DNA from: Novacetimonas cocois
GTDB lineage: Bacteria; Pseudomonadota; Alphaproteobacteria; Acetobacterales; Acetobacteraceae
Assembly: GCF_003311635.1 (NCBI RefSeq)
Contig: NZ_QEXL01000001.1
Span: forward strand, 92,844 to 156,843
Reading direction: 5' to 3'
Length of the DNA stretch: 64,000 nt
Positions within the stretch are counted from its first letter, which is position 1. The number at the start of each line of letters is the position of its first letter. Position numbers and translations under genes: made by a program. Positions 16,187 through 51,325 of this stretch are shown piece after piece. The notes beneath the pieces were generated by a model. That model did not search any database and was not told the origin of the DNA. It worked only from the letters and a program-made list of their open reading frames with translations.

Positions 16187-16343
16187 CTCTGTGCTGCACC
16201 GGGCGTCATCCATGAAGTGACTCCCGATTCGGGACTCGGCGCGTCAGGTGCCGAATCATCCCGTTTCACGATACTGACGGGGCATTTTCATGCCCCATGT
16301 GGAACGGTCATGTCATGCGCATGGCCGAATCCTCGGGGAAGGC
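16187..16343. promoter_or_regulatory. rpoC-rpsL spacer: GANTC cluster and hairpins
   Basis: No gene is supported here. Four GANTC methylation-type sites occur within 39 bp (16219, 16226, 16233, 16253), with a fifth at 16327 and a sixth further down at 16453. Some are arms of inverted repeats: GACTCGGC near 16233 can pair with GCCGAATC near 16250, and CCCGA with TCGGG. A second perfect stem is GGGGCAT (16279-16285) with ATGCCCC (16290-16296). The cluster sits upstream of the str promoter. Confidence 0.45.
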
Positions 16344-47817: not shown

Positions 47818-48120
47818 ATGGCTGACATCAAGAACGAAGCCCTTGAAAACAAGGCTGAAGGACTGGTGGAGCAGGGCGTGGGCCGCATCAAGGACGCGGC
47901 GGGCGGCCTGACGGGGAATGCCGGCATGCAGGCGGAAGGGAAGGTCGATCAACTGTCCGGCATGGCGCGGCAGGAATTCGCCGAACTCTATGAGGAAACC
48001 GAGGGCAAGCTGGAAAAGGCCGTCACCTTCGTGCGCGAACGTCCGCTGGCGTCGCTGGGCATTGCCGCGGCCATCGGAACCCTGCTGGCGCTGATGTTCG
48101 TGCCCCGTCGCAAAAGCTGA
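47818..48120 (+). CDS. CsbD/YjbJ-like stress protein with C-terminal membrane segment
   Basis: This 100-residue protein has the CsbD helix pattern in its first half (K-A-E-G-L-V-E-Q-G-V-G-R-I-K-D-A-A-G-G-L-T-G) and a DUF883/YqjD-like end (R-E-R-P-L-A-S-L-G-I-A-A-A-I-G-T-L-L-A) closing with basic residues. It resembles the smaller protein at 36116 at both ends. CsbD-type genes are often stress-induced; the molecular role is unknown. ATG 47818 follows GGCAGGAG; upstream in-frame starts, as far as 47695, would run into the divergent MFS gene. Confidence 0.85.
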   Translation: MADIKNEALENKAEGLVEQGVGRIKDAAGGLTGNAGMQAEGKVDQLSGMARQEFAELYEETEGKLEKAVTFVRERPLASLGIAAAIGTLLALMFVPRRKS

Positions 48121-48131
48121 GGGAAGCTGTC

Positions 48132-48268
48132 GAGTCGCTTTTTTTTCATTTTAAGGGACTCGTTGATTCCAGAGCATCTTGCGCAACAGTACTTAAAAAT
48201 GGTTTTCATCCCTTCAGAACGGAATTCGCAAACGAATCGGGCTGCGACAGCACGATCCATTGCGAGTC
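48132..48268. promoter_or_regulatory. GANTC-dense leader of rnhB-ccrM
   Basis: Five GANTC sites lie between the CsbD-like stop and the rnhB start: 48132 (GAGTC), 48157 (GACTC), 48165 (GATTC), 48234 (GAATC) and 48264 (GAGTC). GANTC is the target of CcrM, encoded two genes down. The first two are also arms of an inverted repeat (CGAGTC/GACTCG) around a T-run. The region is AT-rich for this genome and should contain the promoter; a TTAA at 48151 with a G-T-T-G seven bases later is only a partial CtrA-like site. Confidence 0.6.
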
Positions 48269-48280
48269 GGGAAGGGGTGA

Positions 48281-48931
48281 ATGCCAGATTACTCACGCGA
48301 GAAGGCACATGGCGGCAGGGTCGCGGGCGTGGACGAGGTCGGACGCGGCCCGCTTGCGGGACCGGTTGTCGCGGCGGCTGTCATGTTCCTGCGCGGCGTG
48401 CCCGACGATCTGGCCGGGCGGCTGGATGATTCCAAGAAGCTGCGTCCCGCCCTGCGGGAACGGGCCTTTGCCGACCTTCACGCGTCTCCCTCCATCCTGA
48501 TTGGCGTGGCCGCCGCTTCCGTTGCGGAAATCGAACGCCACAACATCCTGCGTGCCGCCCACCTGGCGATGCAGCGCGCGGTCGCGCGGCTGTCGCGCCG
48601 TCCCGAACTCGTGCTTGTCGATGGCAATGCCGCGCCGGATTTCGGCTGCCCCGCGCAGTGTGTGGTGGGCGGCGATTCCCGATGCCTGTCGATTGCCGCG
48701 GCCTCCATCGTCGCCAAGGTCATACGCGACCGCCTGATGACGCGCCTTTCCCTGCGCTGGCCCGGCTATGGCTGGGAACGCAACGCCGGATACGGCACCC
48801 CCGCCCATCGCGCCGCGCTGCGCGCGGGCGGCATCACGCCGCACCATCGCGCCGCCTTTGGCACCGTGCGTCAGCTTGTCCTGTCCACATCCCCCCTCAG
48901 CCCTGAAAATGCGGAGCAGCCATCATGCTGA
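48281..48931 (+). CDS. rnhB: Ribonuclease HII
   Basis: RNase HII (216 residues) cuts the RNA strand at ribonucleotides in RNA-DNA hybrids. The active-site motif G-V-D-E-V-G-R-G gives D18 and E19, and a third acidic residue is in L-V-D-G-N (D114); the C-terminal Y-G-T-P-A-H region is conserved. The start at 48281 follows GGGAAGGGG. ccrM begins 22 bp after the stop, so the two are probably one operon, as in several other alphaproteobacteria. Confidence 0.95.
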
Positions 48932-48953: not shown

Positions 48954-50048
48954 ATGATGGAGCTGCCGCTGGACCAGATCCTGCGCGGCGACTGCGTGGA
49001 AATGATGCAGACCCTTCCCGCCGGGTCGATTGACTGCGTCTTTGCCGACCCTCCCTATAACCTGCAGCTGCGGGGGGAGTTGCGTCGCCCGGATGACAGC
49101 ATCGTCGATGGCGTCGATGACGACTGGGACAAATTCGCCGATCTTCAGGCCTATGACCGTTTTACCCGCGCATGGCTGAGCGAGGCGCGGCGCGTCCTGC
49201 GCAAGGACGGGACCATCTGGGTCATCGGGTCGTACCACAACATCTTCCGCATCGGGGCGATCCTGCAGGATCTGGGTTTCTGGATCCTCAATGACGTGAT
49301 CTGGCGTAAATCCAACCCCATGCCCAATTTCCGGGGACGGCGCTTTACCAACGCGCATGAAACCCTGATATGGGCGGCGCGGGGACCCGACAGCCGCTAT
49401 CGCTTCAACTACCAGGCGATGAAGGCGCTGAATGACGATGTGCAGATGCGCTCGGACTGGTACCTGCCCCTTTGCACCGGGGGGGAACGCCTGCGCAATG
49501 AACACGGGCTGAAGCTGCATCCGACGCAGAAACCCGAAAGCCTGCTGCATCGCGTGCTCATCGCCTCGACCAATGTCGATGACGTGGTGCTGGATCCCTT
49601 TACCGGAACGGGGACCACCCCGGCGATGGCGCGCCGGCTGCGGCGTCGCTTCATCGGGATCGAGCGCCACCCCGATTATGCGGAGGCCGCGATCGGGCGG
49701 GCGCGGCGTGAAAAGCCCGTGCCGCTGGACAGTGTGCTGACCACCCCGGCGCGGCGGGAATCACCGCGTATTCCGTTCGGTACACTGGTGGAACGCGGCA
49801 TCCTGCCTGCCGGCACCATCCTGATGGACCGGCAGAAGCGCGTGTTCGCCACCGTCGCCCCCGATGGCACGCTGATCAGCGGCGGGCATCGCGGATCGAT
49901 TCACAAGCTGGGGGCCACCCTGACGAACGCGCCGTCATGCAATGGCTGGACCTTCTGGTATTTCGAACGCGCGGGCGAACTGCAGCAGCTCGATATCCTG
50001 CGCAATGAACTGCGTGCTGAACAGGGCGGTGAGCAGGTTCGGGCGTAA
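48954..50048 (+). CDS. ccrM: Cell-cycle DNA adenine methyltransferase CcrM (GANTC)
   Basis: This 364-residue enzyme should methylate N6 of adenine in GANTC, a solitary methylation used for cell-cycle control in alphaproteobacteria. The beta-class motif order is clear: catalytic D-P-P-Y (residues 32-35, followed by N-L-Q-L) comes before the SAM-binding D-P-F-T-G-T-G-T-T from residue 214. The CcrM-specific C-terminal domain (L-I-S-G-G-H-R-G-S-I-H-K-L-G-A) follows. I chose ATG 48954 because GCGGAG lies 6 nt upstream; ATG 48957 and 48939 are close alternatives. There is no restriction gene nearby. Specificity is inferred from the family. Confidence 0.93.
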   Translation: MMELPLDQILRGDCVEMMQTLPAGSIDCVFADPPYNLQLRGELRRPDDSIVDGVDDDWDKFADLQAYDRFTRAWLSEARRVLRKDGTIWVIGSYHNIFRIGAILQDLGFWILNDVIWRKSNPMPNFRGRRFTNAHETLIWAARGPDSRYRFNYQAMKALNDDVQMRSDWYLPLCTGGERLRNEHGLKLHPTQKPESLLHRVLIASTNVDDVVLDPFTGTGTTPAMARRLRRRFIGIERHPDYAEAAIGRARREKPVPLDSVLTTPARRESPRIPFGTLVERGILPAGTILMDRQKRVFATVAPDGTLISGGHRGSIHKLGATLTNAPSCNGWTFWYFERAGELQQLDILRNELRAEQGGEQVRA

Positions 50049-50071: not shown

Positions 50072-51325
50072 ATGGAATGGAACCGTACCGCGCATTCCGC
50101 GAACAGCACCGATAACTACCTGTTCAGCCAGCTGATCCCCTATATCGGCAACAAGCGTAAGCTGCTGCCCCTGATCGCCCGCGCCATTGCCGCGACGGGC
50201 GAAAACCCGCGTGAGACGGACTTTGTCGACCTGTTTTCCGGGACCGGGGTTGTCGGCCGCATGGCCAAGAAGATGGGGTTCAGGGTTATCGCCAATGACT
50301 GGGAACCCTATGGCGAAATCCTCAACCTCTGCTACCTCGCGACGCAGGGGCCACCAGTCTATTTTGACGGCGTGGCGTATGCGGATGTCATCGCGCGGCT
50401 CAATGCCCTGCCGCCGGTGGACGGATGGGTAACACGCCATCTGTGTCCTGATGATGACGTGGCCTATGACGTGGCGCGCGACCGCATGTTCTACATGCGC
50501 AAGAACGGGCGGCGGATCGACGCCATGCGCGAACAGATCGCACGGTGGGAGGATGCGGGGATGCTGTCACCCACGCAGCGGGCCTGCCTGCTGGCGCCAC
50601 TGCTGTTCAGCGCCTGCTACAACAGCAATACCAGTGGCCTGTTCAAGGGATTCCACAATGGCTGGGGCGGGCAGACCGGCACCGCCCTTTATCGTATCGC
50701 GGGGGATCTGTGCCTGCGGCCCGCGATGTTCGTGGATAATGGCCGTGACAACGTGGTGTTGCGGGCCGATGCGCAGGAGGTTGCGCAGGATTTGGGCCGT
50801 TATCTGTCGCGACCGGCCATCGCGTATATCGACCCGCCCTATAACCAGCATCCCTATGGCGCGAATTACCATGTCCTCAACAGTATCGCGTTATGGGACC
50901 GGCCATCCCTTTCCCCCAAGATCAGCGGCAGGGACAAGGCCGCGATCCGGACCGACTGGCGCACCGTGCGGCGCAGCGCCTATAATTATCGCGACCGGGC
51001 GACGCGGGCCTATGCCCGCCTGCTCAATACCCTGCCGGTGCGCTGGATCGCCACCAGCTACAGCACGGACGGCATGATCCCGCTGCGCGATATGGTCGCG
51101 GCGAACCATGCGCTGGGGAAGGTCCGCGTTTTCAGCCGGGGCTACAAGCGCTACCGCGTCAGCAGCCAGCGCTTTTCACGCAAGCCGATGAATGTGGAAT
51201 TCATCCTGCTGACCCGCGTCGGGCAGGCATGCGCCCAGTCCATCGACATGATTGTCGAGGAAATCAGATCGGCAGAAGCGCGGATACTCGCATCACACCC
51301 CGAAACCGCGACAGGTGCCGTATAA
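50072..51325 (+). CDS. D12-class (Dam/MboIIA-type) adenine-N6 DNA methyltransferase, solitary
   Basis: This 417-residue protein has the alpha-class order of motifs: motif X-like P-Y-I-G-N-K-R-K-L-L at residues 23-32, SAM-binding D-L-F-S-G-T-G from residue 53, and catalytic D-P-P-Y-N from residue 254. A roughly 195-residue stretch lies between motifs I and IV and should hold the target-recognition domain. It starts 23 bp after ccrM in the same direction, so it may be co-transcribed. No restriction endonuclease gene is adjacent, so it looks like an orphan methyltransferase. The recognition site is unknown. Confidence 0.85.
   Translation: MEWNRTAHSANSTDNYLFSQLIPYIGNKRKLLPLIARAIAATGENPRETDFVDLFSGTGVVGRMAKKMGFRVIANDWEPYGEILNLCYLATQGPPVYFDGVAYADVIARLNALPPVDGWVTRHLCPDDDVAYDVARDRMFYMRKNGRRIDAMREQIARWEDAGMLSPTQRACLLAPLLFSACYNSNTSGLFKGFHNGWGGQTGTALYRIAGDLCLRPAMFVDNGRDNVVLRADAQEVAQDLGRYLSRPAIAYIDPPYNQHPYGANYHVLNSIALWDRPSLSPKISGRDKAAIRTDWRTVRRSAYNYRDRATRAYARLLNTLPVRWIATSYSTDGMIPLRDMVAANHALGKVRVFSRGYKRYRVSSQRFSRKPMNVEFILLTRVGQACAQSIDMIVEEIRSAEARILASHPETATGAV

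Follow-up and report, generated by a model that had tools for sequence, protein, structure and literature searches.

Five GANTC sites, the target of CcrM, were found by direct count within 137 bp (48132-48268) in the control region of the rnhB-ccrM operon of Novacetimonas cocois. This array probably serves as a methylation-responsive control region of the operon, in a replication-timed, self-limiting loop whose reader would most likely be GcrA. All positions are those of the window, the whole 64-kb stretch of N. cocois DNA that was analysed. An initial annotation had placed the sites at 48132, 48157, 48165, 48234 and 48264, with ccrM in the downstream operon. The positions proved exact on recount, and profile searches confirmed the gene order CsbD/DUF883 - rnhB - ccrM - D12 methylase, the first three genes being as follows.

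47818-48120, + strand: CsbD/DUF883-type small protein gene (PF05532, E = 1e-12), upstream of the array
48281-48931, + strand: rnhB, ribonuclease HII (PF01351, E = 6e-39; NF000595 above cut-off)
48954-50048, + strand: ccrM, predicted GANTC adenine methyltransferase with a RAMA domain (PF01555, PF18755), 22 bp after rnhB

The best NCBIfam match of the ccrM product was NF050803 (CcrM; E = 9e-187, 620 bits), below the model cut-off of 830, which was likewise missed in all 142 class genomes searched. A methylase domain, a RAMA domain and CcrM as the best family match together identify the predicted product as a member of the CcrM family. Its nearest relatives outside the genus were those of Komagataeibacter (91-93% identity) and Gluconacetobacter (87-88%). 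GcrA is also encoded in the genome (PF07750, matched in two parts of the same reading frame with 65.6 and 49.7 bits; cut-off 26.9). Starting 23 bp after ccrM is a D12-class adenine methylase gene (PF02086, window 50072-51325). Genes for this methylase follow ccrM at 24 loci in Novacetimonas and Komagataeibacter (65-100% identity) and were absent from all other loci compared, Gluconacetobacter and Acetobacter included; in Novacetimonas and Komagataeibacter the ccrM operon apparently contains a second methylase.

The elements of the array are listed below, with distances given from the predicted transcription start.

48132-48136, unstranded: GANTC site 1 (GAGTC), fits YGAKTCK; about -52
48157-48161, unstranded: GANTC site 2 (GACTC), inside the predicted -35/-10 spacer
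48165-48169, unstranded: GANTC site 3 (GATTC), inside the predicted -35/-10 spacer
48234-48238, unstranded: GANTC site 4 (GAATC), fits YGAKTCK; predicted 5' UTR
48264-48268, unstranded: GANTC site 5 (GAGTC), fits YGAKTCK; the fifth site of Komagataeibacter lies 10 bp upstream
48131-48162, unstranded: inverted repeat round a T-run, cGAGTCgCTT...AAGgGACTCg, comprising sites 1 and 2 (fold z = -2.35)

The inverted repeat, which had also been pointed out in the initial annotation, is real, but its arms consist mostly of the GANTC sites themselves and the repeat is not needed to explain the array. No T-run terminator was found on the + strand of the leader.

The motif is avoided in this genome: the 64-kb window contains 101 GANTC, compared with 276 in dinucleotide shuffles. 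In stretches of the same genome totalling 854 kb, which served as background, GANTC occurred once per 777 bp, giving an expectation of about 0.18 per 137 bp and a Poisson probability of about 1e-6 for at least five. The earlier estimate of 0.6 by chance was too high because of this avoidance. Chance, or a general enrichment of GANTC between genes, could be proposed as the origin of the array, since GANTC is more frequent in intergenic (1 per 593 bp) than in coding DNA (1 per 906 bp) and another cluster precedes rpsL. Even the crude intergenic rate predicts only 0.23 sites in 137 bp, far below the density of the array, and clusters of five GANTC within 142 bp occurred only twice in the 854 kb, in the ccrM leader and in the stretch upstream of rpsL. 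This explanation is contradicted by all counts and by the conservation controls described below, and is highly implausible.

Conservation was assessed in a comparison set of about 150 related genomes, in which the labels Komagataeibacter and Acetobacter were assigned by similarity to named records. Related genomes do carry the sites: all five are kept in 4/4 Novacetimonas species, and sites 1-4 in 19/19 Komagataeibacter leaders, 18 of which have their fifth site displaced by 10 bp relative to that of N. cocois. Leaders of Gluconacetobacter, Acetobacter, Gluconobacter, Asaia, Brytella-like and Bombella-like genomes contain a mean of 3-6 GANTC, and the rnhB leaders of 78 acetic acid bacterial genomes a mean of 4.76 per 160 bp. 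As a control, all 16 palindromic patterns of the form XYNY'X' were counted in the same alignments of nine leader groups. GANTC formed 35 conserved blocks, the next palindrome 7 and the remaining fourteen 0-2. Parsimony on ccrM trees gave 0.23 changes per column for G/A/T/C (0.05 without AcetoB, a poorly aligning group), 0.47 for N, 0.83 for the flanks and 0.79 elsewhere; the columns had been preselected for a GANTC in half of the rows or more, a choice that depresses the first figure, and the 16-pattern count is the control for this. These comparisons show that selection preserves GANTC as such, that is, the CcrM target itself.

The same data bear on a possible repressor or activator that would act independently of methylation and bind a specific motif in which GANTC merely happens to occur. 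Some flanking bases are conserved as such a protein would require, for example in TGATTCA and CGANTCG. However, N and the flanks change more than G/A/T/C, and the sites move by 3-10 bp between genera and remain GANTC, so that the constant element is the CcrM target. We consider a regulator of this kind unlikely.

The array has been lost in some relatives. Two relatives with small genomes (1.5-1.7 Mb), which group with Acetobacter, lack GANTC in their rnhB leaders, and only 0-1 sites stand near the rnhB start in genomes of the Commensalibacter type; ccrM is retained in both (loci L217, L218, L026, L053 and L059). The small-genome relatives and Commensalibacter therefore appear to be natural array losses in which ccrM was kept.

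The place of the array differs between lineages. In 26 alphaproteobacteria outside the family in which rnhB adjoins ccrM, the median gap between the genes is 130 bp, and 4.0 GANTC occur in the 160 bp before ccrM compared with only 0.46 in the rnhB leader. In the 78 acetic acid bacterial genomes the median gap is 20 bp, and 0.06 GANTC occur in the 160 bp before ccrM. The remaining Acetobacteraceae fall in between, with a gap of 74 bp, 1.0 GANTC before ccrM and 0.8 before rnhB. As the array tracks the gap and the promoter between lineages, it belongs to ccrM transcription and not to rnhB. Taken together, the gaps and site counts show an array located wherever the promoter predicted to serve ccrM is located, as would be expected if CcrM marks control the amount of CcrM. 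By sequence comparison, GANTC is present at the promoter serving ccrM and is conserved in relatives, as in the Caulobacter type.

To describe the promoter itself, the 160 bp before ccrM were collected from 70 genomes, nearly all from different families of the class. These regions contain a mean of 3.1 GANTC, with a maximum of 8, compared with means of 0.2-1.5 for other palindromes; in the first 30 genomes the enrichment over the locus background was 16.6-fold. A denser array than usual, as supposed in the initial annotation, is not supported by these counts. The commonest spacing between sites was 9-11 bp, and offsets from TTGAC to GANTC had two maxima, one at 8-10 (38 cases), the other precisely at 19 (33 cases). 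The resulting signature is TTGACG-N17-CAnnAT with two GANTC in the spacer (type sequence TTGACGGCGAGTCCGGCTTGACTCAGGATG), in which the C of the second site doubles as the first base of the -10 element CAnnAT. The second GANTC was in place in 37/70 promoters, 32 of which also had the first. A strict 29-bp pattern gave 10 matches in 15 genomes, and 7 of these fell on the ccrM promoter. A literature search found no description of a class-wide GANTC promoter signature; Brilli et al. counted GANTC before cell-cycle genes in 500-bp windows and concluded that control could not be derived from them (PMC2877005). Two further elements were observed in this sample, in L131, L140 and other class ccrM promoters: GATTCAAAA, about 5-15 bp before the -35 and recurrent in many of them, and CtrA-like boxes directly upstream of the GANTC pair in a few families (5/70).

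In N. cocois, the stretch 48147-48190 aligns gap-free across Novacetimonas, Komagataeibacter and Gluconacetobacter. At the aligned columns Gluconacetobacter has TTTGAA-N17-CAGCAT, ending GAATCAGCAT, on which the class matrix scored 10.6; shuffled sequences averaged between -1 and -4, with maxima from 3 to 12. The corresponding elements are predicted at the following positions.

48149-48154, + strand: predicted -35, TTTTAA, from the ungapped alignment and class signature (TTTGAA in Gluconacetobacter, TTGACG in the class)
48172-48177, + strand: predicted -10, GAGCAT, from the alignment and class signature (CAGCAT in relatives, CAGGAT in the class)

The predicted -35, TTTTAA, is weak, a sigma-70 consensus scan of the leader found no promoter, and the N. 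cocois elements are not picked out by the class position matrix; the assignment rests on the alignment through Gluconacetobacter. Transcription would start near 48184, placing sites 1-5 at about -52, -27, -19, +51 and +81. Site 1 would then lie upstream of the promoter, sites 2 and 3 in the predicted 17-bp spacer and sites 4 and 5 in the predicted 5' UTR. The term leader used in the initial annotation does not suit the two predicted-spacer sites, which would fall outside the transcribed leader. The second spacer site is 3 bp further upstream in Komagataeibacter and Novacetimonas than in Gluconacetobacter; the equivalent of site 3 is GAGTC in Komagataeibacter and a shifted GAATC in Gluconacetobacter. 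The number of spacer sites thus seems to be preserved while their position turns over.

Of the methylation-feedback array suggested in the initial annotation, a conserved, promoter-following array bound to the ccrM operon stands, with a site number that is ordinary for the class and as a feature that belongs partly to the core promoter. Its conservation and promoter-following fit methylation-sensitive control of ccrM. In the loop that we propose, passage of the replication fork would leave all five sites hemimethylated and CcrM would later re-methylate them. Hemimethylated and fully methylated sites would be bound differently by a protein that reads GANTC methylation, most likely GcrA acting with sigma-70, and ccrM transcription would for this reason depend on whether the locus had just been replicated and on the amount of CcrM. 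The methylation state and the reader at the array are both presumed here, and the direction, on when hemimethylated and off when fully methylated, is taken from Caulobacter.

Besides the presence of a GcrA gene in the genome, this model draws on Caulobacter, where the binding of GcrA differs between un-, hemi- and fully methylated GANTC (PMC3667746) and ccrM is most probably under the control of its own GANTC sites (PMC3973325; PMC2217572; PMC10073500). The GcrA-type motif YGAKTCK is matched by 54% of leader sites compared with 17% genome-wide; sites 1, 4 and 5 fit it and the predicted-spacer sites 2 and 3 do not. Class promoters showed no enrichment (28% vs 25%), and the motif was rejected as a class-wide feature for want of enrichment outside the Acetobacteraceae. 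Brevundimonas shows no YGAKTCK-type preference (PMC7987155). The CtrA box TTAA-N7-TTAA was not found in the N. cocois leader even with one mismatch, nor in any acetic acid group, and was present in 5/70 class genomes. Control by CtrA through a full box was rejected, as the box is absent from the leader.

Downstream of the predicted start, a fold of -33.3 kcal/mol (z = -5.3) was computed for 48206-48282. In this predicted structure the pyrimidine tract that follows ATGGTTTTC pairs with the rnhB Shine-Dalgarno sequence and start codon (helix P1), enclosing an inner hairpin (P2).

48201-48215, + strand: P1 left arm, predicted to pair with the rnhB Shine-Dalgarno sequence and start codon
48270-48285, + strand: P1 right arm, Shine-Dalgarno GGAAGGGG and rnhB AUG (fold prediction)
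48230-48241, + strand: P2 left arm, containing site 4 (fold prediction)
48251-48262, + strand: P2 right arm, GANTC in Komagataeibacter, GGTTC or GATCC in Novacetimonas

The 5' UTR may thus cover the rnhB ribosome-binding site and damp translation, a model that is separate from and independent of the methylation loop. TTGCGC at 48179 was retained as an alternative -35 and is disfavoured; the aligned class-type -35/-10 lies upstream, and the co-adapted P1 left arm would otherwise stay largely untranscribed.

A structured 5' UTR could in principle account for the sites as by-products, since GANTC is self-complementary and recurs in the opposite hairpin arm. The N. cocois leader has z = -5.9, whereas 247 other genes of the same genome average -0.4 and go no lower than -4.8, and the mean z over 25 divergent leaders is -3.1. 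Among these 25, cognate arms, with the Shine-Dalgarno sequence on one side, pair better than arms swapped between species (-20.3 vs -17.5 kcal/mol, 0/20000 permutations). A covariance model built from Novacetimonas and Komagataeibacter leaders recovered those of Gluconacetobacter with E about 5e-14 and many from Acetobacter with E between 2e-6 and 0.1, with no matches in four 20-kb control stretches. In a model-guided alignment of 32 leaders, which leans toward structure, P1 and P2 were paired at 93% and 92%, compared with 84% and 75% with rows shuffled. In the same alignment the two hairpin GANTC vary together at their N (A-U in 17, C-G in 12), a change that may be a single event. A search for known RNA families in the leader gave no match at E up to 1.

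Several observations speak against structure as the origin of the array. The part that folds does not include sites 1-3, which are equally conserved, G, A, T and C are fixed while other stem positions vary, and the array is still linked to ccrM in class promoters of different sequence. Asaia leaders carry the sites but do not fold in this way (z = +0.5 to +0.7), and the fold is also missing from two Bombella-like leaders; the UTR fold is therefore not general. We regard an origin of the sites in RNA structure as improbable and retain methylation-responsive control. Two Acetobacter leaders (L193, L035) contain a perfect 15-bp hairpin, TTGGTGCGACTCGGT-n7-ACCGAGTCGCACCAA, with one GANTC in each arm.

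The closest known system is the ccrM promoter of Caulobacter crescentus, which likewise has GANTC and whose expression is reportedly hemimethylation-dependent (PMC2217572, PMC3973325, PMC10073500). It reportedly has two GANTC (Stephens et al. 1995, as cited in later papers), compared with five in N. cocois. The N. cocois array differs further in its place, upstream of rnhB instead of immediately before ccrM, in having no CtrA box in its leader and in a 5' UTR predicted to cover the ribosome-binding site. GcrA/CcrM-dependent promoters (ctrA P1, mipZ, ftsZ) likewise have GANTC near or between the -35 and -10, and GcrA is present in the N. cocois genome, but these promoters serve other genes and usually have one or few sites. 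In Gammaproteobacteria, clustered GATC sites are read by SeqA. Like the GANTC arrays they are groups of methylation targets, many of them spaced by roughly one helical turn, as in the 9-11 bp peak of the class, but they differ in methylase and motif. In Novacetimonas the spacings are 25, 8, 69 and 30 bp, and strict helical phasing of all sites was rejected for Novacetimonas on these values.

What appears to be new is the signature of ccrM promoters across the class, the distinct location of the array in acetic acid bacteria and a UTR predicted to cover the ribosome-binding site. Knowledge of how CcrM is coupled to replication comes mostly from Caulobacter. With a GANTC pair locked in position in the ccrM promoters of about half of the 70 sampled genomes, and with the array placed differently in acetic acid bacteria, self-control by methylation becomes directly testable across the class by means of simple reporters. 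The moved sites and the losses in Commensalibacter and the small-genome relatives amount to a natural mutant series. As a tentative and rather doubtful extension, there may have been an ancestral, nearly ccrM-specific alphaproteobacterial promoter in which two GANTC one helical turn apart filled the spacer, the second sharing its C with the -10, so that transcription read its own methylation. Acetic acid bacteria would then have moved this switch before rnhB and joined it to a 5' UTR with GANTC in its hairpin arms, which would mask the ribosome-binding site and make a two-layer brake on CcrM.

The second cluster in the background stretches comprises 5 GANTC in 113 bp (window 16219-16331), about 260-375 bp before rpsL, and includes GACTCCCGATTCGGGACTC. 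In Komagataeibacter, 3-5 GANTC occur within 137 bp upstream of rpsL in 19/19 genomes, because of which the upstream region of the ribosomal operon may also bear a conserved CcrM array. With a conserved GANTC cluster before rpsL, arrays are therefore not exclusive to ccrM.
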